Assembly: GCA_037447655.1 (NCBI GenBank)
Contig: JBBHKE010003251.1
Span: forward strand, 80,001-110,513
DNA length: 30,513 bases
DNA from: Zygnema cylindricum
Lineage: Eukaryota > Streptophyta > Zygnematophyceae > Zygnematales > Zygnemataceae
Direction of reading: 5' to 3'
In this document: positions 3,820 through 28,525 of the stretch, piece by piece
Layout of the letters: each line of letters starts with the position of its first letter
Numbering within the stretch: the stretch's first letter is position 1
The notes under the pieces: model-generated
Told to the model about the DNA's origin: nothing
What the model saw: the letters and a program-made list of their open reading frames with translations, nothing else
Databases searched by the model: none
Translations under genes and position numbers: made by a program

Positions 3820-4790
3820 AGAAATATAAACCCACTTAATACGCCATTTGCCTCTATTAACTTCCATGTTGTCCAAAAAAATGAGTTAATTTATTAACAT
3901 TTCACTTAAAAAGTTGTAAGAGTTCAATTACTGTCGCTTATTCGTGGTATCTTTGCGTGATGTTTATCGTACTCTGGACAATTTCATGCTTTTACTTTCA
4001 CTCTCTGCCGCATTTGCCTTTGGCTCTTTTATGAATTGTATGTAATTGTTCAAAGCATTTTCGACAATTTTCAATGGATTGATCTTGTAAAAACTTGTAA
4101 AAGTGATTAATTCTGGTTTTTATTATTATTTTTTGTTGTCACACACTCCTTACCTTGCAATTCGTTTAGAAAATTTTCTTTTCAAACCTCGAGAAAAATA
4201 AAATCACGTCATGTGAAAAGTGGATACCCACACTCAAGACGGGATAATAACTACATGGGGGCGAAAACTTGGCCATTTTAAATGAAAAATAGGGCGAACG
4301 CAAAACTCTTCGCACAACGTGGTGATCGAGGTGGTCGTTGGCAACCCCATAAGATGCAAGTAACTTTACTGATAAGATCTTGTTCTGAGTACACCATCGA
4401 TTGACTATGATTTTTTGTAAAAGGTTTGAGTTCGAGCATACATGTTGCGGCCCGAAAGACGGTGAAACATGCTTGAGCACGGTAAAGCCAAACGAAACCC
4501 CGGTGAAGGTTGAAATGAAATGGACGTGCAAATAGTGTAAATTGTTCGTTGAACTTGGGTATACGACCGAAAGACTAATCGAACCATCTAGTCGTTGGTT
4601 TCTTTCGAAGTTTCCCTTGGGATATTTCTTGCTCGTTTAGTTTTATCAGATAAAGAGAATAATTGGAGGCCTCAAGATGAAGCACCCTTCACCTGCTCTC
4701 AAACTTTTAATAGGTAAGCTACAGCAATTGTTTAATTGAACCTCCACGTCGAATGAGAGTTCTAACTGGGCCATTTTTGGTAAGCAAAAC
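3820..4790. other. Intergenic, nothing recognised
   Basis: About 970 bases of AT-rich, non-repetitive DNA. The longest frames (for example minus strand 4166-4531) have no recognisable motif. I see no RNA gene or transposon end here. Confidence 0.5.
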
Positions 4791-4794
4791 TTGT

Positions 4795-6010
4795 TGGATT
4801 GGCGCGTAGATGCCGGTTCAATACGGGGTAGAATATGGTATTACCATACTTGAAGCTGCCTGAAATAAATGGATATGGATAAAATACGGACCCGCTAGGC
4901 TCTACATCGAGTTGGTGGCACAGTGGTTGGTTAGTGCATTGACAACTCAAGTCAAAGGTCTAAAGTTCGATCCGTGGGCAGCTCAATTTTCCGCAGTATG
5001 GGACACGCAGAATCCCAGATTTCACGAAAATCTAACATGGTACCAAAGCCAACGGGATTGCGAATGCATTGACCAGCCTCCCCGTGAGGGGGGATTGTTG
5101 GGGATTGTTGGATTAGCATGTACATGCTGGATCAATACGGCTTACAATATGATATTACCATACTTGAAGCCACCCGAAATAAATGAGTAGGGACCGCCAG
5201 GCTCTACATCGAACATCGAGCTGGTGGCACAGTGGTTAGTACGTTGACAGCTCAAGTCAAAGGTCCGACTCTACATCGAACATCGAGCTGGTGGCACAGT
5301 GGTTAGTACGTTGACAGCTCAAGTCAAAGGTCCGAAGTTCGAGCCCTGGCCGACTCAATTTTCCCTAGTATGGGACACGCCGAATCCTAGACTTAACAAA
5401 AACCTAAGATGGTGTCAAAGCCAGCGGGATTGCGTGACCTCCCCATGAGGGGGAGTTGTTGGATTAGCACGTGGATGCCTGCTCAATACGGGGGGTAGAA
5501 TATGGTATTGCCATACTCGAAGCCGCCCAAAATAAATTGGTACGGACTCGCCAGGATCTACATCGAGCTAGTGGCACAGATCTACATCGAACTAGTGGCA
5601 CAGTGGTTAGTGAACTACACCGCCAATCGTTATTAGCGTGTAAGTTTTTTTAGCGTATACGAATAATTAGCGTGGTTTACGCTAATTGGGAATTTGGAAA
5701 TTTTCGAAGAAATCGTCTATTCTAATTAGGAATTAGGGTTTTTTTTAAATAGTGTGGATAATTATATTTGAGAATAAAAAAAAAAAAAAAGCGGGACGGA
5801 ATTAGCGTACACAACGCTAATAACGATTGGCGGTGTAGTGGCACAGTGGTTAGTGCGTTGACTGCTCCTGTCAAAGGTCCCACGTTTGAGCCCTGGCTTG
5901 CTCACTTTTCCCAAGTATGGGACATGCCGAATCCTGGATTTTATGGAATCTTAACAGAACTGGCTACGGATGAACGGAAAGCCGGGTTACGTTGCCAAGC
6001 TACGAGCTAA
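4795..6010 (+). repeat. tRNA-derived SINE-like units, head to tail
   Basis: The unit begins GCTCTACATCGAGCTGGTGG and contains a tRNA-like A box (TGGCACAGTGGTTAGTGCG) and, about 30 bases on, a B box (AAGTTCGAGCCC), the internal RNA polymerase III promoter arrangement. A conserved tail follows (CAATACGG...TAGAATATGGTATT...CCATACT.GAAGCC.CCC.AAATAAAT...ACGG.C.CGC.AGG). I can trace a 3' part at 4795-4893, a near-complete unit at 4894-5199, a short 5' part at 5200-5267, a fuller unit at 5268-5552, a 5' part from 5553 that is cut by a MITE, and another 5' part at 5837-6010. The 5200-5267 and 5268-5335 segments are an almost perfect tandem duplication. It is not a functional tRNA gene because no cloverleaf can be folded. 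Confidence 0.75.
5618..5835. mobile_element. MITE 1 (TA-flanked, ~24-bp inverted repeats)
   Basis: A 218-bp element with near-perfect terminal inverted repeats: the left end CACCGCCAATCGTTATTAGC mirrors the right end GCTAATAACGATTGGCGGTG. A TA dinucleotide flanks both sides (5616-5617 and 5836-5837), as expected for Tc1/mariner-type insertion. The interior is AT-rich and holds no transposase. It is inserted into a SINE unit: SINE 5' sequence is found on both sides. Related copies lie at 26721-26919, 29615-30136 and from 30144. Confidence 0.85.
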
Positions 6011-7227: not shown

Positions 7228-8270
7228 CGGCCTCTAGTTTGGAATGTTATTGAGTCTACTTTTGACTCTAGTTTGGAATCTAGTTTAGACTCTAATTTGG
7301 ACTCTAATTTTGACTCTACTTAGAACTCTTGTTTCATATCTAGTTTGGAATCTAGTTCAAATTCTAGTTTGGACTTTAGTGTGTACTCTAATTTGGACTC
7401 TACTTAGGACTCTAGTTCGTACTCTAGTTTGGACTCTAGCTCGGACTCTAGTTTAGACTTTCGTTTGGACTCTAGTTTTCATTCTACTTTGAACACTACT
7501 TAGGAATATAATTTGGAATCAAGTTCGGACAGTAGTTTGGACTCCTGGTCGGACCCTAGTTCGGACTCTAGTTTGGAATCTATTTTGTACCCTAGTTTGG
7601 CCGCTGATTTGGACTCTAGTGTGGACTCTAGTTTGTACTCTAGTTTGGACTCTGGCCAGGTCTTTAGTTTACTCTCTAGTAGGAACGCTGTTTGGAATCT
7701 AGTTTGGACTCTAGTTTGGACTCTAGCTTACATTTTAGCTTGGAATCTAGTTTGGACTCTAATTTGAACTCTATTTGGGGCTCTAGATTGGACTCTAATT
7801 AGATCTCTTCTTAAGACTTTAATTAAGAATCTAATTTGGACTCTAATTTGGACTCTAGTTTGGACTCTTTTTGGACGATAGTCTGGAGTATAGTTTGGAG
7901 TCTAGTTTGGACTCTAGTTTGAAATCTAGTTCGGAATCTAGTTTGGAATCTAGTTTGACCTCTAGTTTGGACTCTAGTTTGGAATCTAGTTCAAATTCTA
8001 GTTTGGACTCTACTTTAGTCACTAGTAGGGTCTCTGTTGGGAATCTAGTTTGAACTCTAGTTTGGACTCTAGTTTGGAGTATATTTTGGCCTCTAGTTAA
8101 GACTCTATTTTGAAACCTAATTTAGACTCTAGTTTGGACTCTAGTTTAGTCTCTAGTTGAAACTCTAGTTCAGACTCTAGTTTGAAACCTATTTGGAACT
8201 ATCATTTACACTCTAGTCTAAGCTTATGTTTGAACTCTAGTGTGGACTCTAGTGTAGTTTGGATTCACGA
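7228..8270. repeat. 12-bp satellite array A (TTTGGACTCTAG)n
   Basis: Roughly 85 units of a 12-bp repeat with consensus TTTGGACTCTAG and many point variants (TTTGGAATCTAG, TTCGGACTCTAG, TTTAGACTCTAG). Because 12 is a multiple of three, one frame reads (Leu-Asp-Ser-Ser)n, another (Trp-Thr-Leu-Val)n, and the third carries TAG in each unit. The open frames seen here are side effects. The same satellite reappears at 25691-28525. Confidence 0.95.
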
Positions 8271-9683: not shown

Positions 9684-10590
9684 TCACTTTTCGGGACACC
9701 ATGGATACTTTCGGACAAATCGATCAATATAGCACCAATGCACGCAGTTAGTGTATTGCGTTTGCCAAAATTGCCCGCGATTTTTTCCATAATATGTGTC
9801 TGCCAAAGTAGTTGCTGATTTCGAGCATGCGGTTTCGCAACGTTGTCGATTTTCTTTACAAGTCGGCCTTTTCCGAGGCCAAGGACAGATTCCCGGGCAA
9901 AATGGATCGTGTTTCGGCGCCGGTGGGAGCCCGACTCTTTTTTCACACCCGTAAGCACAACGCGGACATCGTCCGGGCATGGCCTCTGCGCATTGTCCAG
10001 AACAACCCAAACACCACAAACCGCATCTACTAATAACCGTTTGTCTTTTATAACACCAACGCGTTCCATCGTCTTCACATGCGCATGATCGGTAAGGCGT
10101 ATGTGCCCCTTTACAAGGAATTTGGAGAATTTGTCCTGGAGTTAATGGCATCAGGAATAACGACCCATCGAAATTGGCATTTAGGATGGATGCGGATGTT
10201 AAATTGTCGCATCGGGAGGAAAACCTTGCCACAATGGTTTAAAATGTCTCGCCAGGAGAAGCGATAAACGGGAGGGATTCGATCACGGGAACAACTACAG
10301 ATTCAGAAGAGAGAGAAAGGGAAGGAGAAGAGGGGGGAGGAGAGGTAGGAGGATAAGGAGGAGGAGAAGAGGGAGGAGGAGAAGAAGGAGGAGAACGGAC
10401 GGGAAGGGTTGGAATTCTGGGAGGAGGCCGGAAAGGCGGTGAAGAAGGAGAACGAGATGAAACGAGGGGGTGAGGAGGACGGGAAAAGTTGGTGAGGGAA
10501 GGGGGGGAACGAAAAGGAATGGTCGGGGGAGGAGAAGGAGCCTGAAAGGACATGGCCGGAGGGGGAGGTGTCAAGCTCGAGTGCTTTTTA
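9684..10590 (-). pseudogene. Pro-rich linker, LysM and Cys-rich tail (3' part of the split protease gene)
   Basis: Read on the minus strand. 10590-10300 encodes a Ser-Pro-rich linker with many SPPP and SSPPP groups, like hydroxyproline-rich algal cell-wall linkers. About 10270-10110 encodes a LysM domain, from SPGETF through ILNANF to PGQILQIPC. A Cys-rich tail (about 20 Cys, no known family) then runs to a TGA at 9684-9686. One in-frame TAA (10239-10241) falls inside the LysM just after GETF. The related copy at 3195-3815 has GAA at the matching place, so this is probably a nonsense mutation rather than a recoded codon. A GT donor overlapping the TGA leaves open a further exon. Context: same strand and same domain theme as the papain/LysM gene at 22067-25231, from which it is separated by the antisense retrotransposon. 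I infer it is that gene's 3' end. The alternative is an independent broken paralogue. Confidence 0.65.
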
Positions 10591-10599
10591 AGCACACTT

Positions 10600-11868
10600 C
10601 TATATTACCGAGGATTTCCATACCCTTCCGACCCGTACTATTCTCAGATTTCGGAGAAGCCCGCACAACCTGCCGGAAGGGTTGAAGTGTTTCCTCTACT
10701 GAAAAAGACACGCTTTGTTTCGTGCCTAACGGAGGCTGGACGACAAAGTTCTACCGTCTGAAAGATCGCAGTTCCGTCACATATTACTAGCTTTCACCGG
10801 CCCTAGTGGAGGGTACATTGTGGATTGCCACGTAGACTTCCGGACTGTCATCTAGATTTTGATGTTAGCTGTCTGTAGAATTCAGTTCAGATTCAGCTGA
10901 CCAGTGGTTAATTAATTACATTAAGTCAAAGCTTGGCACTTCCGTGTCTTTTTAGTACTTTGTCTTAAAAATTGTGGAAGCAATAACTTCTTCCGGCCGC
11001 GGATCTAGCCGTGGTCAGAGGTCCAACTTTTTGCCCCAAGAGTAGTACACATTATTTTGTCTTATGTCAGTTTGATTGCCGTTGCTGGTCGCTCATTGGC
11101 TAATAGCGTAGGTTTAACTTTTGAACCTGATTTTGGACAGACTTTGATGTATAAGGCGCTTGGGGTCGAAGGAGACAGGTTGCTTTTCAGTACTGTCTCC
11201 TGTGAAAACCCTCAGAAATTCCAACAAACCTTCTTTTGGAGAATCTTTGTGTTGTTTGACTCTATTGCCATCTCTGTTTTGGATTTGTCCATTTTGGGAA
11301 TCATAGTACGGGAAGGTGGTTGGCACTACTGTCCCTTTGGGTGATTTTTGGATTTTTCGCTTCTTGAAACTGAGAAGCGTCTAGTCGGTTCTGAGCTGCG
11401 GACACCGAGGGTTGAAGGAGTACCATACCTATTTACACTGCCATCCGGAGAGATTTCGCCTTTCTTCCATGGTCATCGTAAATTGCCGGGGTATGTTAAG
11501 CTTGCTTCGCCATCTTTTATATCTTCCATCTTCTATTTTATTTCTTTGGTCAAGGTGATATTGTTAAATCTGAATCAGCCATTCCTATTTATTTTTATAT
11601 GTCCACGTGGTAGTGCATTTGCGTCTTCATTTTTAGTCTCTTTTGCTTTGGCGGAAACTTCCCGGGCTAAAACTGCAATTTCCCGTCATCGAAACAGTGG
11701 GTTTTTAGGGAACGAATGCTATAGACTTCCTGTGGAATAAGCACAGTACTGAAAAGCAACCCTATCTTCTCGGATTAGAGGGGATAGGAGCTTTCACTTT
11801 GGGAGTCCTCTTTTTGGAAGCCAGATTTACTTCTAGCCCCCACTCTTTCCTCCTACACCTCTGTCCAC
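10600..11868 (+). other. Retrotransposon 5' leader / possible 5' LTR
   Basis: About 1.27 kb between the host exon and the first Gag codon. It has no long protein-like frame matching known domains (frames at 11057-11344 and 11348-11740 match nothing I know). The 5' LTR and leader should lie here. Short matches to the 3' flank exist (CTGCCGGAA at about 10671 and 21441, AACTTTTTGCC at about 11026 and 21860), but they are too short and too scattered to define an LTR pair. Confidence 0.4.
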
Positions 11869-13950
11869 ATGGGGGGAGGAGAGTCCCCGGATAACGGACC
11901 GGAGAGGCCCATGCCGGAAGGGAAATCTTTGAGGTCCGAGGAGTCGGAGCTCAAGGGGACTGTTTTTGGATCGCCGCCCAAGGAACCGTCTGGTGGTTCT
12001 CCTACTCCTCCACCTCCCAGTCTTTCTCCCGAACATTACCCTTCTTTGGCGGAAGCCGCCAAGGTCCAGACTGAGGAGAGGAATAGGGAGTTTCCCAGGG
12101 CTCGGCCAAAGAGGCAAGCGCAGAGAGAGCCCCACGTGGGACCTCTTCCCGAGGTCTGGTTAAACACCCGATCCAAGATTTCCCGGGCCGAAATCCAGAT
12201 TGACCCCGCTGTTTTGACGGACACACGTCGACGAGGGCGTAAAGAACTCCTTGCCCTTCATGATCTCCATGAGCTCAAGGTGAAGAAGGAGTTGGTGCAG
12301 AGAGTGGCACGGACAGATCGAGTCCGAGTGGTTAGACGCGTCGGAGGGGTGGTGGAGATTTTGAGTAGTTCTTCGGAGAGCAGCTCTTCACAGTCAGGGC
12401 CGGAACGTTCCCAAGGAGCCCCCTATTCTCGCCCTCCCCCATATTCCTCTCAGGACACCGCAGCAAGCCGACCCACCCGAGAAGGTACCTCTTCTCGACC
12501 TCGTCGAGGAGAAGGGGGTATTGAGAGGGGCGCACGAAATCCAGTTAGGGGAAAGAAGTTTGACCACCGTGATAGCAAGGGGAGATTTGCCCCTTTCCCC
12601 AAGGATGAGACGTCCTCGACTCCTATTCCACCCTCCACCGAGAAACGTGCTCCCCACACGACTCGTTCCTGCCCTGCCGAAGGGTTCTGGAGATCCAGAC
12701 CTACCGATCCCGAGGTTCCGGGTACGGGACCCGAAGATTTGTCCGAAGGATGGTGGCGCACCAGACCTAATGATCCTGAAATTCCGGGAATCGAGATAGC
12801 GGATCTCACCCAAGTAGTGGAAAAGGCCAAGGAACTAGTGGAGGTTCTGAAATCCCAAGGACAGGCTACGGCGGGGGCCGGACCCGTCACGGTAGATTGG
12901 GAAGCATTGGAGGAAAAACGGAGAAAGTTGTGGGAGCAAGAATTGAATCTAATCCGGGAAGCTAGGCGGAGGTCCAGTGGGATCCTCAGCGGGCGGATCC
13001 CTCCAACCCCAGTAGCGGAAACCCCGCCCGGAGCTCCACCCTTGGCTCCTCCTTCGGAGATTGGTCAGGAACCTCCACTTCCGCGGAAAAATGGGCAGAC
13101 ACAAGACCTAATATTGGGGGTTTGGGTGCAGATTTATTGTGTGAACTCAAAGCGGCTCTGCGGGAACAGCCTACTTTTGTTTCGGTGGAGGTTTCTGAAG
13201 CTGTTGAGGCCTTAGTGGAGTTATGACCGGACGAAAGAATTCACATCCCCTTGAGACCGTCTACACCTCCTTCTCCTCCACCCAGACTGTCCCCTGATCC
13301 TCCTCCTTTCCCTCATTCTCCTACTTCCCACTCCCAGGCTCCGGCAGCAGAAAAACCCAGGAAGATCCCAACACCTCTCCATCTCCTTCCGTTTCTCTTA
13401 CTGGAGCCGACCGTGGGTCACCAGGTCCGCTGAAGTTGCCCTATAAGTACGACGTATACTCTCCTCCTCACCGGCGTTCCCCATCCTCTAGTTCTGGAAC
13501 TCCTCCCCCTGAAACCTCCAGAAGAAGGTCCGGAAACAGACCCCGTTCAGGAGACAGACACCTTCTCCCCAGAACCGGCCTTCATCTCCATCTTCTTCTC
13601 CATCCCTACCCCAATATCCACCTGCAAACCGACCTCGGCTTCACATCCTGTCCACGAAAACAGTTCTCCGGGACCAGCGATACTCCCGTGGATATAGAGG
13701 GGTTGATATAGGGGAGTGGGCCCCTTCTACTTCAGTAGAACCGACAGGCCCACAGGTATCCTCTGCACCAAGAGAATCATCAAGGAATACCCTTCCTCCT
13801 ACCACATTTCTGGGCTCGGGTACTTCCTCTGCTGGAGGAGATTCCACTCCTCACCGGGCAACACCTCCTACCGGAGGAGGAGTCGGATCCCTTCCCGAGG
13901 AAGAGGACCTAGGAGCCACTTCGCCAGCCCAGTTTGTCAGTCCCACCGGA
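11869..13950 (+). pseudogene. gag: gag, N-terminal Pro/Ser-rich part (frameshifted)
   Basis: A long frame opens at ATG 11869 (just after a C/T-rich leader) and stays open to 13215. It is rich in Pro, Ser, Arg and Glu, with a serine block (SSSSESSSSQS) near codon 170, and a charged helix-like segment (EEKRRKLWEQELNLIREARR) near codon 350. Protein-like sequence leaves this frame near 13050 and continues in another (reading GGLGADLLCELKAAL), which meets an in-frame TGA at 13223 and then a Pro-rich stretch. It moves to a third frame near 13436 and back to the first near 13510. Such Pro-rich N-termini are common in Gag of algal gypsy elements but have no catalytic role. The start codon is the best available, not proven. 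The frame changes fall in C/G homopolymers, so some could be sequence errors. Confidence 0.6.
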
Positions 13951-13956
13951 CCTTCC

Positions 13957-15330
13957 TTGTCTCAGTTCACACATTCGGCCAAGGAGGAAAAGGAGATGGG
14001 GGACATCCAAATATTTACAGAAGATAGCTCTGGGATAGCCTTCTCTGATTTCGAATTGTTGTGGAAATCCTTCACCCAATCTGAAATTAACAAGTACAGG
14101 GGAGGATCTATTCCTGACAACTTCGAAACAACTCTCTTTCCCATGATGGTAAACTACCTCGCTGGAGGGGCGTTGGCAGATTATAAGGAGCGTCAACCTC
14201 TTTTGATGGCTCCAAGCATCAAAATCTCCGATCCGGCCCTGGATGCCGAAGTTTTACAAGCGGAGGCAGATTTGGCGGCCGCAGCGGTTACCCCTGTTAC
14301 AGCTACCTTGATCAATGATATGAAGTTGCAGGCCCAAGGGAGGGCTTATGTTAACCAGGTGCAAGCAATGCAGGCAGCTCGGGCTGCAATTCGTATGGTG
14401 GCGAATCCTACCCCTTGCACCACTCTTCTAAACATCTGGAAACTCCTCTACACCGAGAGGAACGAATCACCCATCAAGGAATTCACGGAATTCCGGTGTT
14501 TGAAGAATGAGACGCCTCAGACCCTCTTTAACCGCCTCTCTAGTCTTTGTCAGTAGACTAAACTGTCTACCATTGACCTTCCCGCAATGGCCACCAAGTA
14601 TTTCATAGCTGTCCGTAATTCCTTCGGACCGACAGGGCAGACTGCCTTGGATAACTGGATCGCAGGACAGGCCATCCAGGACATAAATCCCTCTGCAAAG
14701 GACATATCCCTAGTGGCCATGAAGTTATACGACCACTTTCTCCACAGTGAGGCGAGAGAAAAAGCCGTGATCGGAAAGGCAAGAGCGAATTTTACAGGAT
14801 TCACCGGGGAAACTTCCCTAAGTGGGGAAGAACAAGCGGAACTCCAAGCTTTGCGGAAGCTTAAAGGGAAGCAAGTTGTGGACAGCGGGCCAGAACAGGC
14901 AATGGGGGCTGACGATCGGGTGATTCTGTACAACTGCCTAAATTGTCAACAACCTGGACATGGATGGAAACGCTGCAGCAGGAAACTCAAACCAGAGCTA
15001 GCCCTCAAGTTGAAAGAATGGGAGGTAGAGCATTCAGAAAGGAACCAGAAGCAGCATGAAGAAAAGCTTAAAGCAGGGGGGGGGGAGAGAACACCGGTCA
15101 CAAAGAACAATTACCGACCCACTCCCCGGAGCGAAACTTCGAAAATGTCCCAGTCCCAACTGCGACAAATCAAACTGCCAAAGTTTGACGATGCTCAGAT
15201 CTCCAACGAGATTCGAAGCAAGTATACCACTGAGGGTCACAAATGCGAAGCCTGTGGTTTTATGGGGCAGAAGGAGGGACAATGTTTCCGGAAGAACGGG
15301 ATACCTAAGGAAATGATGCAATTCGCTTTT
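13957..15330 (+). pseudogene. gag: gag, capsid-like and zinc-knuckle region
   Basis: A capsid-like helical region begins near 13957 and contains the Gag-type segment EFRCLKNETPQTLFNRLSSL. A single TAG (14554-14556) follows LSSLCQ, and the same frame continues with TKLSTIDLP, so this is one protein with a nonsense codon. The nucleocapsid part holds a perfect CCHC knuckle, CLNCQQPGHGWKRC (14935-14976, spacing C-x2-C-x4-H-x4-C). A second copy, CEACGFMGQKEGQC (15244-15285), has the same spacing but Gln in place of His. Gag proteins package the element RNA, and the knuckles bind nucleic acid. Basic and Gln-rich linkers follow (QQQSQQMAAMAAELAALRMV near 15470) before the protease. Confidence 0.75.
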
Positions 15331-16784
15331 ATCACGGGAGAAGGAGAGACTGCCGTTAACCCTCTTCCCCTACAACTCCTTTATCCTTGGGAGCGCCCAG
15401 TGTTGCATACACCATTGACGCCACAACCATTAACGACTGCTCACGCAAGACTTACACCAGAGATAATAATCCAACAGCAGAGTCAGCAGATGGCTGCCAT
15501 GGCTGCAGAATTGGCTGCACTTCGTATGGTGTCGACTTACCGGCCTGCTCCTCTTACTGCAGCGCAACGACTCCAAAGACAGAAGCAAGAGTTACTACAA
15601 AAGCTAGCGGAACTTGAGCTTCAAAGCACATCGGGTGCTAATGACGATGATTTGATGGGCTGGGATTTGGAAACCCCAAATGCTCACCATGCAAACAGCT
15701 TCCTGCACGGAGCATGGAATGTTGGAGTGGGAGATGGTCGTAGACAACTCCGCTCCTCAACCTCGGATCAAAGGAGAGACAGGCAGAAAATGGGCCAAAA
15801 AGACCACAACAGGAAGGCCACCGGGCCTTTGTCTTTCACGCCCAGGGCAGTCATTCTGAACAGTGACATAGGACTTGGGATCAAGCCTACTCAACCCCAT
15901 CCTCTTCCTCCTCAACCTAAATTGCCTCCCGGGTTCGAAAACTACCGAAAGAAGAGCCAACCGCGGGAGGAGAAATCACTGGAAGAGAACAAACAGAGCG
16001 ATCAAGATTGGTTTGAACGATTCATGGCGGAACGCCCGGACGAGAAAGCACCCCAAACTCCACCAGTGCCCGATTCCGGTTCTGACAGTGAAGACAAGGA
16101 GGGTAACGAACAGGAACAGGTAGCGGATCCGACAACGTCTTCCTCGAAAGCTCCGCTCCATTCATCCAAGCCTGCTGCTATGCTGGTCCAGCATTTGATG
16201 CCTTATGCCTTGACCCATGTCAAGACACTTGCTTCCTCCCATAATCTGCCCGAAGAGATCCTCATTCAGGCCCTGGGAGAAGAGATCCATGCTGGAAAAG
16301 ACAAAGTCGACAGGGTGACACCACCCACGGCGGTATATTTGTCTTCAGATCCTAAAACCCCTATGGCGGATAGGGATTACAAAGCTTTGTCCGTGGCACT
16401 CATTCTAAACCGGACCGGGAATTTCAAACTGAACGAGTACGGCGGTTATCAGGACGCTGTGGTGGATACAGGAGCACTTCCCAACCTCATCACTACGTCT
16501 GCATTGCAGAAAATGCCGAAGACCTCAGACCCCAGATCTGCCCGAGTAAGATTTTCTTGAGCACAGTCACCAACGGCAATCAGCCAGTCCATTGGATCAT
16601 CAAAGCCATGGACATTGAATTCTCAGATGATGTGGGACAGAATGTGAAAATTGAACTTCCTTTCTTAGTGGTAGAAGGGAATCAGTTTGAAATTCTGTTG
16701 GGAAATGGCAACTTGGACCCGCATGAATATGAGTTTGAGTGTTTGGAAGGAGCAATGTACAGTTCGGGACCCAGGAAATCCTGA
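15331..16784 (+). pseudogene. Linker and retroviral-type aspartic protease
   Basis: After a disordered acidic/Pro-rich linker (15330-16150) comes an aspartic protease. The active-site loop reads DAVVDTGALPNLITTSAL, with the catalytic Asp codon at 16465-16467. After a frame change near 16540 the frame continues with STVTNGNQPVHWI and reaches the family's second signature, FEILLGNGNLDP (about 16687-16722; the family pattern is I-L-L-G). Retropepsins act as dimers and cut the Gag-Pol polyprotein. Another frame change follows near 16770, into frame with the next part (GTKVVVPLDLWNRGKTNVPV). Confidence 0.7.
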
Positions 16785-18090
16785 AGGGACCAAAGTTGTG
16801 GTTCCTTTGGATTTATGGAACCGGGGAAAGACAAATGTTCCGGTGTCTGGCTGTTACCCTGTGTATTCTACCACCTCTCCGGCGGAGCTGTTCGACAGTT
16901 CCACAGATATTGCCGAAGACATCTAGCAATTCCCGATTTCCAAGCGGTGGGAAAGGGAATACAAATACCGATTATTGCAGGTGGCGAAACTCCGCCGGGG
17001 AGTGGATCAAACCTTCTCGGCCTTACTATTACCAAAAATAGATTCGACGATCCAGTCAGATGTTTTCAAACCCCACACTGGGAGCGAGGACTTGAATCGA
17101 CAAGTGGTGTCATTGACAGTCCCAGACTCCGGACTTCGGATTTTATCTTTAGTTTCAGGAATCAGTTCTGATTTCGAGGCAGTTTTAAAGGCAGGGTATC
17201 GAATGGAGTCATACACTGGAGTGGAAATTTCACCGGAAGCGCGAGCTGTCAGCGAACACCGCCTACATCAACTCCACCGCTTATATCCTCAACAGCTTCC
17301 AGTGTCTTCCATTTCCAAAGCTCACCGGAGTCTTCCCCACAATGTGGATAATATAATGGCACCTCATTTAGCTAATCTGGGGAGAGTAGATCTGGTTGTG
17401 GCGGGATGGCCTTGTTAGGATACTCCCTAGCAGGACAAGGAAGAGGGCATCAAGACAACCGAAGTGGAACCTTCTATCAGATGATTACATTGATATCGTG
17501 GATTCAGCAGCTCCAAAACACCCCAGTGGGGTACATTCTAGAGAATGTCCACCCGGGAGATGATAAACGAAAGCAGGTTGCAGAAAGTTGGAATCAGGTA
17601 ACCCGTATTTTGGGAGCTCCCTTGGTTTTTGACGCTGCTCAAGTGGGATCTCGAGCGCACAGACTCCGGGCATATTGGACCAATATGATCCCTCTTCTAG
17701 TCCTCCGGCAACTGTTAAAGACACAAACCCCCGACCCCCAGATTTCAGTGCAGCAAATACTTCGAAAAGGGAGAATGGCGACACCTGTAACGAAACCGGA
17801 TCGCACACCTTTCTTCCAATGCAATATCCCAGGATTCCCGCGTCGAGCACTCCCCACGTTGTTATCTTTTCCTCACAGTCACGCCTACCGGAACGGAGCA
17901 GCTGGAATGAGTTTTGACAGCAAGGAAAGACTTTGGATAGCACCAACAATAACAGAACGAGAACAGGCGATGGGATTTCATCCGGAAACCACGGCAGCAC
18001 CAGGTATTTCAGACCTACAGCGGTGCAGCCTCATAGGGCAAAGCATGGATTTAAATGCCATTACATGGGTTGTAAAACATGCTTTTGCCT
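16785..18090 (+). pseudogene. C5-cytosine DNA methyltransferase domain within pol
   Basis: A linker (16785-17110, with an in-frame TAG at 16924-16926) leads into a methyltransferase fold with all main motifs in order. Motif I (SAM binding) is ILSLVSGISSDFEAVLKAGY, from 17140. The motif II-like acidic step is YTGVEISPEA. Motif IV is VVAGWPC followed by GYSLAG, catalytic Cys codon 17413-17415. Motif VI is ILENVHP, Glu codon 17541-17543. Motif VIII is SRAHRLRAYWTN (about 17649-17684). Motif IX is PTITEREQAMGFHP, and motif X is IGQSMDLNAITWV (to about 18075). The R-x-x-R-x-x-x-W-x-N form of motif VIII recalls DNMT3/DRM enzymes more than Dnmt1. This family transfers a methyl group from SAM to carbon 5 of cytosine. 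At motif IV the expected Gln codon is TAG (17416-17418) and one base is missing, which shifts the frame and breaks this copy. I see no chromatin-reader domain attached to it. Confidence 0.85.
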
Positions 18091-19878
18091 ATTCCAGTCT
18101 CCACGCTCCAGATTTACGCAGAAATTACCTTCAAGCTCCACAGTTTTTGTCCACGCAAGCAACTTTGCAGCTTGAGGGGGGGAGAGAAAAGAGAAAAATT
18201 CTACACCCGAGAGTTCCTTCAGCGGGGGGGAACGGGAGCTCAGAAAGAGACAGCTTAGCGGAAGTTGTCAGAAGTAAAGTATTATCCGGAGGAATAGAGG
18301 CAGATCCACAGGTTGGGCTAGAATTCGACATCAACCTCTGGGGAAGACCACCAGAAGCTTCGGTTGCGGTTGAGCCGGGAAAAATGGACTGGACTCTGGG
18401 GGAGCAGTTGGACCCTCAGCAGAAAGAACAACTAACAGAACTCTTGGCTAGAAACACTCAGGTTTTCTCATGGTCCGAAACCGATGTCGGAATCTACAAA
18501 GGAACCCCCTTTCGGATAGATTTGATCGACGAAACCGCAACGGTTTGGCAGAAACAATATCTTCTCAGCTTCAAAGAGAAAGAGTTTATTACTGCAAAGG
18601 TTCAAACTTTGGTGGAAGCAGGGTTGGTTCAGGAAAGTACCGGACTCCATGGGTTTGCTTCACCCACAGTTCTCCCTCCTAAGAAGGATTCATCCGGGAA
18701 AACTGTGGACTTCCGAATGTGTGGGGACTACCGCATGTTGAACACGGCCACCATTCCTGACCGGTACCCAATGCCAACTCCGGAAGAGATATTCGACTCT
18801 CTTGCTGGGTACACTATTTTCTCCACACTGGACATGAAGAATGGTTTCCACCAGATTACCATGGAACCAAAACAGCGAGAGAGAACGACATTCTGGGCCG
18901 GATCTAGACTTTATGAGTGGATTTACATGCCATTCGGACTGAAGAATGCACCAGCAAAGTTCCAACGAGCCATGGACGAAGCGCTCCGAGGAATCGATTG
19001 TGCCAGGTGCTACATCAACGATGTGATAATATTTTCCAAGACCTTTGAAGAACACTTGGAGCATATCCAGATCGTTCTGGGCTCTTCAAGCAGTGGGCTT
19101 GAAATGTCACCCGGGCAAGGGTATTTTTGGGGTGCAGAAAATCATTTACCTCAGACATGAGGTAACTCTTGGGACAGTGGGTCCCCATATGGTGAAGGTT
19201 GCGGCCCTCGACACTCTTTCTCCCCCGCAGGACATTTCTGCCTTGCGCACCTTTCTCGGCTTGGCTAACTACTATCGCAGGTTTATTCCCGAGTTGAGTA
19301 GTCACGCCCAGCCCTTAAATAAGCTATTACGGAAAGATCAAGAATGGCAGTGGGCCGAGGAACATCAGATCGCTTTCCAGTTCTTGAAGGATGCCCTGAA
19401 GCAGCACCCAGTGCTCCGGATGCTTGATCACCAGAGGCCTTTCCTCCTTTACACTGATTGGAGCAGGTTTGGATTGGGAGCTGTTTTGGCCCAAGTTGAC
19501 GATGTAGGTGCCGAGTATTTGGTGGCTTACGCTAGCCGGAGCAATAACCGAGCTGAGGGAAATTATAGTAGTTATCATGGGGAGCTTCTTGCCGCGGTTT
19601 GGGCCATCCAGCATTTCAGACCTTATTTGTACGGGGTCCCTTTCACACTAATCACTGATCACCAACCCTTGAATTGGATCATGGAAAATAGTAAGTTGAC
19701 CGGCAAACTCGCCAGATGGGTTCATATCCTGGAGGAATATGATTTCAGCATTGTCCACCGGGCAGGGGAAATTCATGGGAATGCCGACGGACTGAGCCAA
19801 AACCCCGATCCTTCTACCCTTGATTACACCGGAGCTCGGCACGACGAGGATCCGGAAATCAGTTTGAGACTCATTTGA
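18091..19878 (+). pseudogene. pol: Reverse transcriptase and RNase H
   Basis: RT motifs in order: a primer-grip-side segment VLPPKKDSSGKTVDFRMCGD and DYRMLN; motif A STLDMKNGFHQI (catalytic Asp 18831-18833); MPFGLKNAPAKFQRAMDEAL; then motif C CYINDVIIFS (19008-19037), where the first Asp of Y-x-D-D is Asn (codon AAC, 19017-19019), which should abolish polymerase activity. A frameshift near 19080 moves the reading to another frame (GLKCHPGKGIFGVQKI), which continues through the connection (LRTFLGLANYYRRFIPEL) into RNase H: TDWSRFGLGAVLAQ (Asp 19456-19458), GELLAAVWAI, ITDHQPLNWI and GNADGLSQNP. The frame meets a TGA at 19876-19878 and resumes without shift into integrase. Motif spacing is that of Ty3/gypsy Pol. 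Confidence 0.9.
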
Positions 19879-21215
19879 GCATCCTCCGCCTTCATTTGGC
19901 TTCTTCCATTTGGGGGGGAATTGTCAACTTTTGCAGCAGATGTTGAGGAGCAGGCACCCATGGGAGCTGGACGGAAAGACATTTGGAATGACTCCGAAGC
20001 TCTCCAATCTATTCAGCAAGGATCCCCTCTTCCCCAGTTGGATGGAATTCAATTATCCCGAGTTCAGACCAGGATGGCGGCGTATGAGCGGGACCGAGGA
20101 GTGCTCCTCCGCAAATGGACCGACGGTACTATGAGAGTGGTTCCTCCTCCCTCAGATCGAGAAACTCTGATTACCAATCTCCATAAACAATGTGGACACT
20201 TCGGCCAGAAGCGAACAAATTCCTTGGTGGCCGGCTCTTACTGGTGGCACGGTTTGCGGGCCCAAGTCAACCGAATTGTACAGACTTGCTCTTCCTGCGA
20301 TAGAGTTAAGGCAGCTTTTGACAAAAAGGGTGGGACTGAGCTCCATTCTCTTCCCATCAGGGGAATGTTTTATAGGTGGTCTTTCGATCTTTTGGGACCT
20401 TTTCCGACCAGCAGACGTGGGAATCGATTCGTTTTGGTCATGATTGAACATTTCTCAAAATGGATAGAGCTTGTGGTCCTGCCCCGAAAAGAGTCCAAGT
20501 CCATTGCCGACGCCTTTCTGCAGAGAGTCCTGTCACAGTTTGGGGCGCCAACAGAGGTTCTGACAGACCAGGGATCGGAATTCGCCGGAGAATTTACCAA
20601 TCTTTTGGAGAAATTCCTCATCGACCATCGACTTACCAGTCGCGACCACCCTGAAGCCGACGGTTTGGCCGAAAGGTGCGTACAGACAGTGAAGCAGTCA
20701 CTACGGAAATATGCAGTTGAAGAGGACTTGGGAGAGTGGGACAGAAGGGTGCCTTGGATTGCCATGGGATACAGATTCAGCAGATAGGCTTCTCTTCACT
20801 CCTACAGCCCTTACTTCATTTTATTCGGACGACATCCCATTCTTCCCGGGGCGGCCTCTGCCCAAGCAGTGGTCCTCCCGGCAATGGATGACAAGGGAAC
20901 TGTCGAAAAACTGATCGCAGACTGTGCCAAAATTTTCCACCGGGAGATGCCTCTCTCCATGGGGAATTTACAGGCGCCCAACACCGGGATCAATTGTGGT
21001 ATTCCCAGCGCCGGAGTGGAAATTATGTGCCCCGACAGCGACGATTTATGCCAGGAGACTTTGTTTATCGCATGCAACAGAAGAAGGACACGCTTGACAT
21101 TTCTGCCGGGCGGGTGATTTTGAAAGTGGTGGAAGTTTCAAATAAGGGAGTTCTAACTTTGGAAGGGAAAGATGGGCGAAGAATTAAAGAGAATCAAATC
21201 AATGTGGCCCCTTGA
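19879..21215 (+). pseudogene. pol: Integrase with C-terminal domain
   Basis: The zinc-binding N-terminal domain shows HKQCGHFG and, 40 residues on, CSSC (HHCC pattern). The DDE core has WSFDLLGPF (Asp 20386-20388), LTDQGSEF (Asp 20566-20568) and GLAERCVQTVKQ (Glu 20671-20673), a D-x34-E spacing, one or two residues shorter than typical chromovirus integrases. A TAG (20785-20787) falls after MGYRFSR, where related integrases usually have a Gln, and the frame then continues with ASLHSYSPYFILFGRHPILP. A frame change near 20980 leads to the C-terminal DNA-binding domain (QRRSGNYVPRQRRFMPGDFV...), ending with LEGKDGRRIKENQINVAP and a TGA at 21213-21215. Integrase inserts the DNA copy into the host genome. 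All three catalytic acidic residues are kept although the frame is broken. Confidence 0.85.
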
Positions 21216-21289
21216 CACCTCCGAGGATTAGAAGACGACCCCACTTTCCACTTGACTTACTTTGCCGATCCTCCTTTCGTTCATCATCC

Positions 21290-21470
21290 TGCAACTTGTC
21301 CTCCCAGCAGCAAGAAATCTTGGTCTGCCACCAGTGCCTCAGCAAGACATCTTGGTCTGCCACCAGTGCTGGCAGTGCTGGCATCCAGCTTGTCTCCCCT
21401 CCTCGTGGGAGCCACGCCCTCCATCCCCTAGTCCATGGTTCTGCCGGAACTGTGAATTGGGCGGGTAACT
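21290..21470 (+). pseudogene. PHD-like zinc finger at the 3' end of pol
   Basis: A short frame at 21262-21468 reads CHQCWQCWHPACL and, after a Pro/Ser spacer, WFCRNCELGG before a stop. The C-x2-C...H-x2-C-L...W-x-C-x2-C layout resembles the second half of a PHD finger, a histone-tail reader found in several retroelement polyproteins. The first Cys pair is uncertain: a 32-bp tandem duplication (about 21309-21372, each with CTTGGTCTGCCACCAGTGC) has disturbed the start of the module and shifted the frame. It may have guided integration to particular chromatin, which is inference. Confidence 0.45.
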
Positions 21471-21880
21471 ATTTTTTTTTCTTAGTCACGGTTGACTTAG
21501 ATGGGGGGAAATTGGGGCACCAACCCGATTACAGAGAACCCAACCCCTTTCCCCGGCTTAATGGGGATAAGGGGGAGGGGAGATATTTTCGCCTTCCCAT
21601 GCACTCATCCCTATCCCCTATCCTTGTTCCTCTCCTATCTGTGCATGCATTCCTTTTGGGGAGGGATGGGGTCAGCAGTGGGCATTATCATTATAAGGGG
21701 AAGCATTCGCATTGGTGGGTTATTTGCACGATGCCGAGACCCACCATTCCGGGCAGCGGGTCCTTCCCTTGTGTTTCTTTGGCACGCTCGACAGAGGAGG
21801 GAAGGTATTTGTCGCGTTTTTAAGTGAATCAATAATATCGGAGTCGTCCATGAGCCGTTAACTTTTTGCCACACAAACTT
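21471..21880 (+). other. Retrotransposon 3' region / possible 3' LTR
   Basis: Noncoding tail after the last pol module. Purine-rich candidates for a polypurine tract are GATGGGGGGAAATTGGGG (about 21499-21516) and GGGATAAGGGGGAGGGGAGA (about 21563-21582). No TG...CA-bounded repeat matching the 5' side could be recognised, so a 3' LTR is expected here but not shown. Confidence 0.35.
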
Positions 21881-22066: not shown

Positions 22067-25000
22067 CTGCAAAGAAGGATTGAGGTCGTAAAAGAAAGAA
22101 GAAGTGATTTTGTACATCCTCCATATGCCAGGACAAGTGTCCGTCGCGTTCACAGTGTACCAAAGATCGCAACTAGGATTTCTTGCCGCAAGCATTGTTT
22201 CGTTGCTATCGAGTCCCGTCATATTAAAAAGGATCACACCTGATTCACATACGGTTGATGTTAAAAAATGCCATTGGTCAAACGTAAAAACCAAGAGTCG
22301 TGCATTAATAAATGACGCTTTTCTTGGGGATGATATCGAGTCCCCATTTAAACCATTTGCAAAAATTATGCATAAGCATGATTTTCCCTTTACCTGGTAG
22401 AAGGGTCAACAAACAATTTAGACCCTTGTTTTTGTTTGCCAATGTTGATTCATCGATGGAAAATTTTGAAGCGATTGTCAGCAAGAAAAACGTAGAATAG
22501 AGAGTAAAAAATATGGACAGGTTGTATTAAATCTACGACGCGTAGAGTGTCCCTACTATTAATACTTTCAGCAATGTTGTAATAAGTACCTGCAATGGAA
22601 AAGGTTTTCACTTAAATACCCTACTAGAGTAGGATTCTCACTTTGCAAGTGTCTACCGGCGCAATAATGTAGCTTGAGCTGTTGCTGCAAGCCGCATATC
22701 CGTCCAACGTGACTCCCAAGTACTGGCCCTGCCATATTTTTCCATCACACGGGGAAAATCAGAAAAATATCAAACATTGATCCATTATACAACACAACGA
22801 TGAGGACTTCTAGCCTTCGAAAGATCCTTTGCCGACCTGTCACACAAGGAAGCAAACACAATACAAGGGGGAGGAGTGGAAAGTTGTCAAAATGGCATGC
22901 TCACATTCGGGCATGCACACGTGTATCGGATCCCGGTGGCTTCGTAGCTGTCAAAACAAGCTCCACCGCAAAGAGCGTTCCCGTCCGACTGACAGGTGGC
23001 ATTTCGGGCGCATCCCGGAAGGCCAGATTTGAAGCTCACATATCCGTCAGGACAAGTGCATTCAATCTGCTGCTGGCTGTACACGCCCTGCGATTGGACG
23101 CACTTTCCCATGCCGCACACAGGAGGGTAGAAATCCTCACACATGCTCCCTGCTATTGGGGCATAAAAGGGATACAGGCCGGACAACCTACAGACGCAAA
23201 ATGAAACAAACAGTGGAAGAGTCAAAAAAAGTGAAGGAATAATCGGTTAATCGGTTAGGAAAATGCAGATGACTGCTTTTATATGGACTGTATAACATCC
23301 ATTGATTTGTGTGCTCCTTAAAATAAAATGAAAGAAAACCATACAAACGTTGGTCCCATACATAAAAAAGAAAGGATAGAAAAACCCACTTGTTGATTCC
23401 GCATTTTCCTCCTGGCTTCCCGTTCATCGCAATCCTCATGTACACAGAAGCCCCCCATTGAAGCCCTCGTGAATTCTTGATGATCGAATGGCGCGGCTCT
23501 GTAAGATTGTAGCCCACAATGACCACCAGATGGTTGATTTGCTGACTGCAGTTTCCGTCGTACACAGCGGACATACGCATTGTGCGGAGGCACTCCCCGT
23601 CGGAGTTTGCGCTGTCGCTCAAGTTTCCAGGGAAATGGTCGAAACTCTGTAGAAAATTATGAAGCCCATTGCTGAAGTTAGTGTTGATTTTAAGAACTAT
23701 GTTTATTTGTTGCGGTTTACATCCGCCAGGCTGTTTATTATCGTGTTGAAACCTGTTCAAATCACAATACTTCAATCGTCTTTTTGTTCAATTTTCATAA
23801 TTCGGTTTTAAATCAGGCTTCAAAACAAAAAACCAAGACGTACATCGAAATCTCCGGTGGCGGAAATGAAGGAGAGAACAGGTTGCACAGAGACAGCTTT
23901 CATAAGGGCGAATTCGTCATCAGCAGGAACTTGTCCCCAGTCAAACACCTGAAAAAAAGGAAAAACCAAAAAAAAAACTAATCAGGTTCACTGTCCCTGG
24001 AAACAAGGACTTTTCGGACAGACTTGGTACGTGAAATGTCATTAAAGGATTAAGTACAGAAAAGAAACGGCTTCGGCCAAGATCATCAGAAAAAAAAATA
24101 ACTGGCGTTCAGAGCCCAAAAGTCAAATCATCGGGTTGACTGTCGTCAGAAACATGGGTTCAACGGCCAGACTTGGTATGAGAAGTGTCATTCTAGATAA
24201 ACGTAGAAGAGAAAAAGGCAGCTGCGCAGGTCATCACCTTGAACATAATGTTTGAAGCGTCTTCTTTCTGACAATCCTGGACGGTCCCGTTGAGCGACGG
24301 ACCCAAATACCGATAGTTGTTTTTGGTGGTGAGCCCCTTGTTGAGAACAGCGTAGAAGAGAGCCCATTCTGGATGGCCGCCATCGCAGATATCGACTCCG
24401 AGGCAGTCGGCAATTTGCTGCGCCGAGGCAGCTGGACTGTAAACGTTGGGATACTCCGGACATTTGTATTTATAATTTCCCCTTCCGTTGTATACTGCCC
24501 ACGACATGGCTATGACGTCAGCCGTCGCAAGCGCCCAACAGCTGTCGCAATGGACAGTCGAAGGGCAAAGAAATAAAAGAAAGGAGAAAGGAAGCGTTTA
24601 GGGGAGAATGCATTTTGAGAACTAATATTCGGAAAATTTGCACAATGGAGACAGAGGAAGGAAAGGTTTCTTGGCTTCCGAACAAGCAAGTTTCTATTGG
24701 ACCCACTCATATTAAAAGTTCCGCAAATATACAATGGCACCGCAATCCATCGACGTATTTCTAGATTCACTCAAACATGGGATCCGTACTTGACCCTTAC
24801 CATAGCTGGAAATTAGAAAACAATAAGCTTGTTGACTTGCTCCGCTGCCTACTATTGTAGCAACTTGATAGAACAAAGGTTCCATGATTGGCTCTCACCT
24901 CCAGTGAGTCCTCCACTCTGGTAGTGACAGGTGTCAGCCGCCAGTCGACCTCGTTGGGCGGAATGACCGTGTTGTAGAGATTGAAAATGGGACTTTGAAA

Positions 25001-26653: not shown

Positions 26654-28525
26654 TACTCCACTTAAAATATTTTTTTTGACTCTAGTTTGGAGTCTTGTGT
26701 GGATTATAGTCTAGACACTACACCGTGAATCGTTATTAGCCTTATGTACGCTATATCGGCACCCCAAAATTTTGACATTGATACCCTAAATATAATACAG
26801 TACACTATTAAAGGAAGTGGACCATAATCTGCCACGTCTCCTGGCACTAAATTAGAATGAATGATGCTATTTTTTTCTTTACACTAATAATTTCTATACG
26901 CTAATAACGATTCAAGGTGTAGTTTGTATTTTAGTTTGAACAATTTTTTGGACATTACTTTGAAATCTAGTTTAGGCCCTAATTAGGTTTTTGGTTTATA
27001 TTCCCTAGTTTAGACGGTTTTGTAATATTGTTTGGACTATGGTTTGGAATTTTGTTTTGAACTATAATTAGGACTCTAGTTTGGATTCTAGTTTCTAATC
27101 TAATTTGGACTCTAGTTAGAACCCTACTCGTTTGAAATCTAGTTTAAACTCGAGTTTGGATTCTTGTTTGGACTCTCTTTTAGACTCTAGTTTGGAATCT
27201 TGTTTTGAAACTACTTTTGACTCTAATTTAGGCCCTAGTTTGCAATCTACTTCAAACTATAATTTGGACTCTAGTTTTGACTTCAGTGCGGACTCTTTTT
27301 TGGACTCTAATTTGGACTCAATTTTGAAATTTAGTTCGAACCTTAGTTTTGACTCTAGTTCGGACTCTAATTTGGACGCTAGTTTGGAATGTATTTTAGA
27401 CTCTAGTGTCGACTCTACTTTGGAATCTGGTTTAGACTCTAGTTTGGACTCTAGTTAGACGCTAGTTTGGACTCTAGTTTACACTCTGATTTGTAGTCTA
27501 GTTTCGACTTTAGTTCGGACTCTAATTTGGATTATATATAAGGCTCTCGTTAGTACACTCGGTTTGGACGCTAGTTCGGACCCTAATTTGGACTCTACTT
27601 CGGACTCTAGTTTAGACTCTAGTTTGGACTTTAATTTGGGCACTTGTTTGGGCTCTATTGTGAATTCTAGCCTGAAATATAGCTGTTATCTGGTTTGGGC
27701 TCTAGTTTGGACTCTAGTTTGGACTCTATTTTGGACTCTAGTTTGGAATCTAGTTGGGACTCTAGATTAGACTCTTGTTTAGACTCTAGTTTCGACTCTA
27801 ATTTGGACTCTATTTAGGACTCTATTTTGGAATCTAGTTTGGACGCCAGTTTGGACTCTATTTTAGTTTGGAATCTAGTTTAGACTCTAATTTACACTCT
27901 AGTTTGGCATTTAGTTTGGACTCTAGTTCAGACTCTAGTTTGGTATCTAGTTTGGAGTCTAGTTTGGACTCTAATTTAGAGTCTAGTTTGGAATCTAGTT
28001 CAGACTCCAGTTTAGATTATAGTTTGGACTCTAATAAGGAAAACCCCAAACCAGACGTTAGTTTTGGACTTTGGTTAGGACTCTAGTTTTAGACTATTGT
28101 TTGGACTCTAGTATAAACTCTAGTATGGACTCTACCTTGGAATCCAGTTAAAAATGTAATTTGTAATCTAGTTTGGACTCTAGGTTGGACTCTGATTTGG
28201 AAACTAGTTTCGGCTCTGGTTTTGAGTATGGTTTGGAATCCATTATAGACTCTAGTGTGAAGTTTAGTTTGGACTGTAGGTTGGACTCTAATTTGGACAC
28301 TTATTTGGGCTCTGAACTGGAGTATGGTTTGGAATCTACTATAGACTCTAGTTTGAGTTCTAGTTTGGTCGCTAATTTGTACTTTACTTTGGACTCTAAT
28401 TTGGACTCTAATTTCAATACTCGTTTTCACTCTTGTTTGGACTCTTGTTTGGACTCTAGTTTGGGCTTTAGTTTAAACTGTAGTTTGGATTATATTTTGA
28501 ACTCTACTTTCGGTCCCTAGTTTGA
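26654..28525. repeat. 12-bp satellite array B, main part
   Basis: About 1.8 kb of the same TTTGGACTCTAG satellite as array A, interrupted by a MITE at 26721-26919. Units between 26935 and 27130 are more degenerate; 27700-28020 is the most regular part. The long frames of Ser-Leu-Asp-Ser or Trp-Thr-Leu-Val repeats are by-products of a repeat length divisible by three. Confidence 0.95.
26721..26919. mobile_element. MITE 2 (TA-flanked), same family as MITE 1
   Basis: A 199-bp element. The left end CACCGTGAATCGTTATTAGC mirrors the right end GCTAATAACGATTCAAGGTG with one mismatch, and TA flanks both sides (26719-26720 and 26920-26921). Internal words GGCACCCCAAAATTTTGAC and CCCTAAATATAAT are shared with MITEs 3 and 4. 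It is inserted in satellite array B. Confidence 0.85.

Follow-up and report, generated by a model that had tools for sequence, protein, structure and literature searches.

We analysed a window of 30,513 nucleotides from the streptophyte alga Zygnema cylindricum (contig JBBHKE010003251.1, contig bases 80001-110513, with positions given below in window numbering), whose genome assembly comprises 352.8 Mb in 2689 contigs. A Ty3/gypsy retrotransposon spans positions 10569-21793, with the ends TGTC...GACA and a GAGG target-site duplication on both flanks (10565-10568 and 21794-21797). On the plus strand, its domains follow in the order gag, protease (PR), DNA methyltransferase (DNMT), reverse transcriptase (RT), RNase H (RH), integrase (INT) and PHD-like finger. 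We consider it practically certain that this is a gypsy Pol in which a DNMT separates PR from RT and the integrase is followed by a PHD finger. The element begins with terminal repeat A (10569-11745), which starts with TGTC and matches both A1 and A2 of another genomic copy, C746. An open frame upstream of gag (11788-13215, ATG at 11869) and a gag-like frame recognized by its position (13513-14556, ending at TAG) have no Pfam match; neither does the gag continuation (14557-16560), identified by motif only from a CCHC knuckle (14935-14976) and the protease DTGA (16459-16476). Downstream of the DNMT are the RT with its YIND motif (18363-19160, Pfam RVT_1, PF00078, E 4.8e-21), the RT tail and RNase H (19030-19878, PF17917, 2.1e-34), a TAG-interrupted integrase composed of H2C2 and rve (19879-20787, PF17921, 1.9e-15, and PF00665, 6.2e-14), the PHD-like finger (21300-21465, CHQCWQCWHPACLP ... 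PWFCRNC), and terminal repeat B (21509-21793), which ends with GACA.

The initial annotation had recognized C5-methyltransferase motifs in the right order between a DTGA protease and a gypsy RT. Our analysis confirms this arrangement over two reading frames and places the DNMT at approximately 17080-18182, the start formerly proposed at 16785 being too early and falling in the protease tail and a linker. The N-terminal part (17080-17418) contains motif I (17140-17199, ILSLVSGISSDFEAVLKAGY) and motif IV (17392-17415, LVVAGWPC), with a TAG directly 3′ of the catalytic Cys. The C-terminal part lies in the next frame (17421-18182) and begins, downstream of this in-frame TAG and a frameshift, with YSLAGQGRG (17421-17447), followed by motif VI (17532-17549, YILENV), motif VIII (17643-17684, VGSRAHRLRAYWTN), motif IX (17844-17978) and motif X (18021-18059); this second frame carries ENV, SRAHRLRAYWTN, IX and X. 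The resulting order I, IV, VI, VIII, IX, X is unrearranged, as in DNMT3-type enzymes. Motifs VI-X precede motifs I-V in DRM enzymes, the plant rearranged DNMTs, and the observed order is not theirs.

Database comparisons point in the same direction. The C-terminal part shares 46% identity with protein P0001 (E 7.9e-48), the top of three matches among 5.8 billion sequences, and the window DNMT is therefore not a chance likeness. The search with Pfam DNA_methylase (PF00145) suggested in the initial annotation gave a divided answer: the C-terminal piece of the window reached only 13.2 bits against a cut-off of 22 (E 0.062), whereas the family represented by another copy of the same genome, L040, passed with 44.6 bits (1.7e-11). 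The N-terminal piece had no Pfam match, and NCBIfam dcm matched the C-terminal piece with an E value of 0.002, far under its cut-off. Each of the 12 PDB sequences listed by phmmer for the C-terminal piece is a DNMT3A, the best of them at E 0.011. A profile built from 14 relatives gave 56 matches at E up to 1, with DNMT3A first (6e-20), then DNMT3B/C, and further down 4onj (2e-11; its entry is named only DNA methyltransferase, and we take it to be a tobacco DRM), DRM2 (7e-9), M.HhaI (2e-6) and DNMT2 (0.13); no entry labelled DNMT1 or CMT appeared among these 56. A structure prediction for P0001 (pLDDT averaging 79, with 310 of the 560 residues reaching at least 90) also had DNMT3A/B as its first fold matches; the VIA-align list for this structure names no DNMT1, CMT or DRM, which is no evidence against those families. 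By profile and fold comparison, DNMT3 is the closest solved family of the element methyltransferase. The closeness to DNMT3 in the DNMT3/DRM-like motif VIII proposed earlier is supported.

The window copy is inactive. Its DNMT is broken in motif IV by the TAG and the frameshift, further frameshifts occur near 16560 and 19100, a TAG lies inside the integrase, and the PHD region carries a 32-bp tandem duplication (21308-21369). Motif I has a Val in place of the Phe found in 16 of the 16 copies compared that have this motif, and the RT motif reads YIND versus YIDD in 19 of 20 copies fetched by their DNMT (the motif was not found in L030). The element had been thought able to write methylation on its own DNA; this copy cannot, because its DNMT, RT and integrase are broken. 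The TAG codons at 17416-17418 and 20785-20787 align by eye with Gln of relatives. An alternative genetic code reading TAG as Gln (table 6) was tried and rejected: with table 6, pol still falls into several frames, and L040 runs through 2073 codons without a stop by the standard code.

The organization seen in the window is widespread in the genome. At least 149 places match the C-terminal part of the window DNMT (window included, 1620 candidates) and at least 123 match PF00145 (782 candidates). The initial annotation had called for a search of same-order copies, and all 20 copies fetched by DNMT maintain the order PR-DNMT-RT with near-constant spacing; where the other domains are retained, gag lies upstream and RNase H and integrase lie downstream. 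Both DNMT parts share one frame across motif IV in 18 of these 20 copies; the stretch compared is stop-free in 13 of the 18 and contains stops in the other five (L021, L022, L023, L036 and L037), the comparison being partial for L025 and L037. In L040 (contig 1344), a single stop-free frame of 2073 residues encodes gag with its CCHC knuckle, PR, DNMT with motif IV GWEC, RT, RNase H, integrase and PHD. The DNMT of L040 is separated from the window family by a long branch, and L040 therefore represents a second family of the same genome. Membership in DIRS does not agree with the rve integrase and 4-bp duplications, and Pfam detects no recombinase family in L040; nor is the element a chromovirus, L040 having a PHD instead and no Chromo family at E up to 0.5. 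The frameshifts and stops of the window copy could have suggested that a methyltransferase gene fell by chance into one gypsy copy, or that the assembly was misjoined. This explanation, to which we attach virtually no probability, is refuted because the 20 copies keep the same order and spacing, and it is at odds with the open frame of L040 and with the occurrence of DNMT before RT in Marchantia and other proteins.

Intact relatives lacking the DNMT, which would have spoken against the initial annotation, were looked for in a second sample of 28 loci among 8313 candidates, scored mainly via the integrase with P0004, a protein whose own DNMT is placed elsewhere. This sample is not fully blind, as P0004 has a DNMT, but no locus matched through it. 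None was found: a DNMT is present in 23 of the 28 loci. For 15 loci, comparison of the lists by eye placed a match to PF00145 some kb upstream in the same orientation; the remaining 13 were all fetched and comprise eight with a DNMT and five without one in the stretch fetched. In L042, which is rearranged, the DNMT is on the strand opposite to RT. The five DNMT-negative loci show no intact DNMT-less form because family similarity stops within or just upstream of RT: it ends inside RT or RNase H in L041, L047 and L048, and upstream of RT in L052, whose 95% relative L049 has a DNMT, while an unrelated 1.2-kb repeat directly precedes RT in L053. This repeat of about 1.2 kb (L053:698-1888) is also inserted in L018, L025, L026 and L048.

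The DNMT domain of the family is under purifying selection. Comparing subfamily A (12 sequences, among them the window) with subfamily B (6 sequences) by the NG86 method, we obtained dN/dS values of 0.070 for DNMT_N (19 pairs used, 53 saturated) and 0.084 for DNMT_C (68 used, 4 saturated), next to 0.075 for PR (11 used, 55 saturated), 0.043 for INT (41 used, 1 saturated) and 0.020 for RH (31 used, 24 saturated); these values are only rough because the median dS was 1.6-2.5. Within A and B, the median dN/dS of the DNMT was 0.22-0.27 (0.11 to 0.64 for other domains), as expected for decaying copies. Mismatches between copies in 11 chosen pairs lean to C/T at CG and CHG, not cleanly, and this trend is too weak to rely on. 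In a 72-row alignment, 71 domains have a residue at the position of the catalytic Cys, and it is Cys in every one of them; the Glu of ENV and both Arg of motif VIII are conserved in 72 of 72. Pro-Cys is the normal motif IV pair of C5 methyltransferases; it is kept in the window family and replaced by Glu-Cys in 56 of the 71 aligned sequences. This replacement, together with the absence of methylation in yeast expressing the gypsy DNMT of Klebsormidium, a result that the authors themselves consider inconclusive (de Mendoza et al. 2018, PMC5890265), would be compatible with a domain that is no longer a DNA enzyme and instead methylates RNA or serves Pol as a structural component that binds nucleic acids. 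We regard such a role as very unlikely given the conservation of Cys, ENV and RxR, the Pro-Cys of the window family, and a profile that matches DNMT3, with DNMT2 at E 0.13.

The PHD-like finger reported downstream was corroborated. The pattern C-x2-C-x4-H-x2-C...C-x2-C occurs at the end of Pol in the window and in 7 of the 20 fetched copies. Pfam PHD falls just under its cut-off of 24 in L032 (7.5e-5, 23.1 bits) and exceeds it in L040 (PF00628, 1.3e-9). Among database relatives, P0071 passes with 28.2 bits, and P0073 (22.7) and P0074 (22.6) fall just short. Downstream of its PHD finger, P0002 shows a weak resemblance to Tudor domains at residues 923-962 (PF21743, E 0.0091, under the cut-off), possibly a second reader.

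Copy C746 provides a view of the repeat architecture. It is organized as A1-coding-B1-A2-B2 with TCCT on both flanks. The comparison of A1 with A2 covers 1183 bases and shows 24 differences, 21 of them within the first 651; that of B1 with B2 shows 5 differences over 280 bases. A repeat A downstream of B is likewise present in L024 and L027, and L031 contains a solo A-B with a TTCC duplication. A G-rich run immediately precedes B. The window copy has the layout A-coding-B, as would result if B1 and B2 recombined.

Searches for relatives identified 70 proteins matching the DNMT of P0002 and 8 matching that of P0071 (queries included). In the 72 proteins mapped, RT or RNase H precedes the DNMT in 39, the DNMT is followed by the integrase with no RT or RNase H within the protein in 27, and the DNMT stands alone in five (P0001, P0003, P0019, P0042 and P0062). 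Only P0071 has the order DNMT-RT-RH-INT, an order also found in P0073 and P0074; P0076 reads RT-RH-DNMT-INT-PHD and P0075 DNMT-INT-PHD. Organism labels point to Chrzof1 (P0019 and P0041), which we read as Chromochloris zofingiensis, Haematococcus lacustris (P0062) and Marchantia polymorpha (P0077), the first two being chlorophytes. The Marchantia protein (MARPO_0084s0073), annotated only as hypothetical, resembles the window family in having its DNMT directly before RT, with gag- and protease-like stretches upstream by eye; it differs in being partial, without any Pfam family, and in missing, by eye, part of the motif IV region. The gypsy proteins with the order RT-RH-DNMT-INT-PHD (P0004, P0041 and others) have the same DNMT family, and in many the integrase is followed by a PHD, but their DNMT lies between RNase H and integrase and their motif IV is mostly WEC. 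The Haematococcus protein has protease matches followed by the DNMT, no RT within the protein, and groups with the RT-RH-DNMT-INT order in DNMT trees. P0003 looks DIRS-like by eye upstream of its DNMT, which remains unproven, Pfam detecting only DNA_methylase, below cut-off. A scan of viral contigs yielded 17 loci with only distant enzymes (27-53% over short segments).

The ten DNMT-before-RT rows form one side of a branch in both the DNMT tree (72 rows, support 100/99) and the RNase H tree (46 rows, 97/96). With DNMT3A stretches (2qrv_A) and five phage-type enzymes as outgroups, a branch with support 97/91 has the 27 element DNMTs on one side, and those 21 rows without known DNMT-before-RT order form a group (98/99); DNMT3A, the only DNMT3 included, sits beside the element DNMTs on a long branch flagged as unsure. 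The DNMT trees fit one capture and one domain move, and are also compatible with a domain captured twice, from related hosts. In contrast, the tree of the integrase (61 rows, nine of them DNMT-before-RT) requires two order changes, a single change being found in 0% of bootstrap trees. It weighs against a single move unless it reflects an artefact; P0052 and the group of P0071 lie on flagged long branches. We tentatively propose that a single ancient capture of a DNMT3-type gene founded a large green-lineage gypsy clade coupling a methylation writer and a PHD reader in one Pol, that a single later shift within Pol took the writer from its place between PR and RT to one between RH and INT, and that Pro-Cys became Glu-Cys in some algal lines, possibly altering chemistry or target. 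Self-marking might then be a general life strategy of this clade.

What could an element gain from its own DNMT? Its likeliest role, as judged from sequence and put forward with caution, may be methylation of the element's own new copies; the anatomy and this self-marking role jointly are probably the best overall explanation. In working copies, the DNMT would share one polyprotein with RT and integrase and could methylate de novo either the freshly made cDNA of the element or the host DNA where it inserts. The PHD finger, placed like chromodomains after the integrase, may help the integrase settle on marked nucleosomes, and new copies would enter host chromatin already bearing the host mark. 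This might serve either to dodge host sensing and attack or to silence the element; self-silencing and mimicry of host heterochromatin, both suggested in the initial annotation, are putative roles. Methylation might instead shield the cDNA against the host, whether it attacks by nucleases, by restriction-like sensing or by deamination, any chromatin effect being a by-product. The position of the DNMT beside RT in Pol and its preserved catalytic residues are compatible with such protection, which de Mendoza et al. discuss. We nevertheless consider it unlikely, as no such sensing system is known for the host and the same authors report that other retrotransposons of DNMT-element hosts manage without a DNMT (PMC5890265). 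The element may also persist by methylating its new copies and thereby keeping the damage to its host low, in keeping with the large copy number and with a between-subfamily dN/dS of the DNMT resembling that of the protease. Self-silencing of this kind seems distinctly unlikely, a group-level benefit being in general hard to maintain. Retrotransposons with their own DNMT invert the usual view of methylation as a host defence. Pre-marking of their own insertions becomes testable here because the copies are many, some are open, and a reader finger lies in the same Pol.

Several features surround the element. Arrays of 12-bp units flank it at 7255-8253 (TCTAGTTTGGAC, 71% matches) and 27026-28524 (TATAGTTTGGAC, 67% matches). 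A degenerate rRNA piece at 4314-4833 gives two eukaryotic LSU rRNA matches (Rfam RF02543, 92.7 and 77 bits). An exact 67-bp tandem pair (5202-5335) overlaps a predicted tRNA-Glu (5285-5357) and looks like a tRNA-derived short interspersed element. A partial gene for a papain-family cysteine protease is located on the minus strand at 23188-23787 (PF00112, 2.1e-9).

The charophyte precedent invoked in the initial annotation holds, the layout being the same as far as the published text describes it (PMC5890265). KnitGypsy-Dnmt3 of Klebsormidium nitens, likened here to the window family by its published description and not by sequence, shares the gypsy domain set and a Dnmt3-type DNMT in the Pol open reading frame, and its DNMT is also under purifying selection (Ka/Ks < 0.2). 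Its DIRS-like repeats parallel the A-coding-B-A-B of C746, an arrangement given in that paper as that of DIRS (PMC5890265). The Zygnema elements likewise have an rve integrase, a DNMT in a single Pol frame (L040) and A-coding-B-A-B repeats, and the window element is of an already described kind because the repeat layout of C746 is the one reported for KnitGypsy-Dnmt3. A PHD finger follows the integrase in the window family; the main text on KnitGypsy-Dnmt3 contains no word beginning with PHD. SymbioDIRS-Dnmt3 of dinoflagellates, whose DNMTs methylate CG in yeast, shares the Dnmt3-type DNMT in Pol and the split repeats but belongs to another retrotransposon class, with a tyrosine recombinase instead of the rve integrase (PMC5890265). 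Chromoviruses and brown-algal chromodomain or Tudor gypsy elements, as described in PMC12477816, have a chromatin reader after the integrase, as here; the window family differs by its PHD finger and added DNMT, with no chromodomain detected by Pfam in L040. A further text, citing the 2018 paper, mentions DNMT3 members within retrotransposons and names LTR Copia and DIRS (PMC12344493); we found no other report of DNMT-bearing gypsy elements in the open-licence PMC listings searched. The gypsy case was thus described from one charophyte, the same kind is abundant in the Zygnema genome, and a sister group with another domain order occurs in algal and further database proteins. As far as the open-licence literature shows, Marchantia, the chlorophytes, the second domain order and the combination of writer and reader in one Pol are new beyond the published case.
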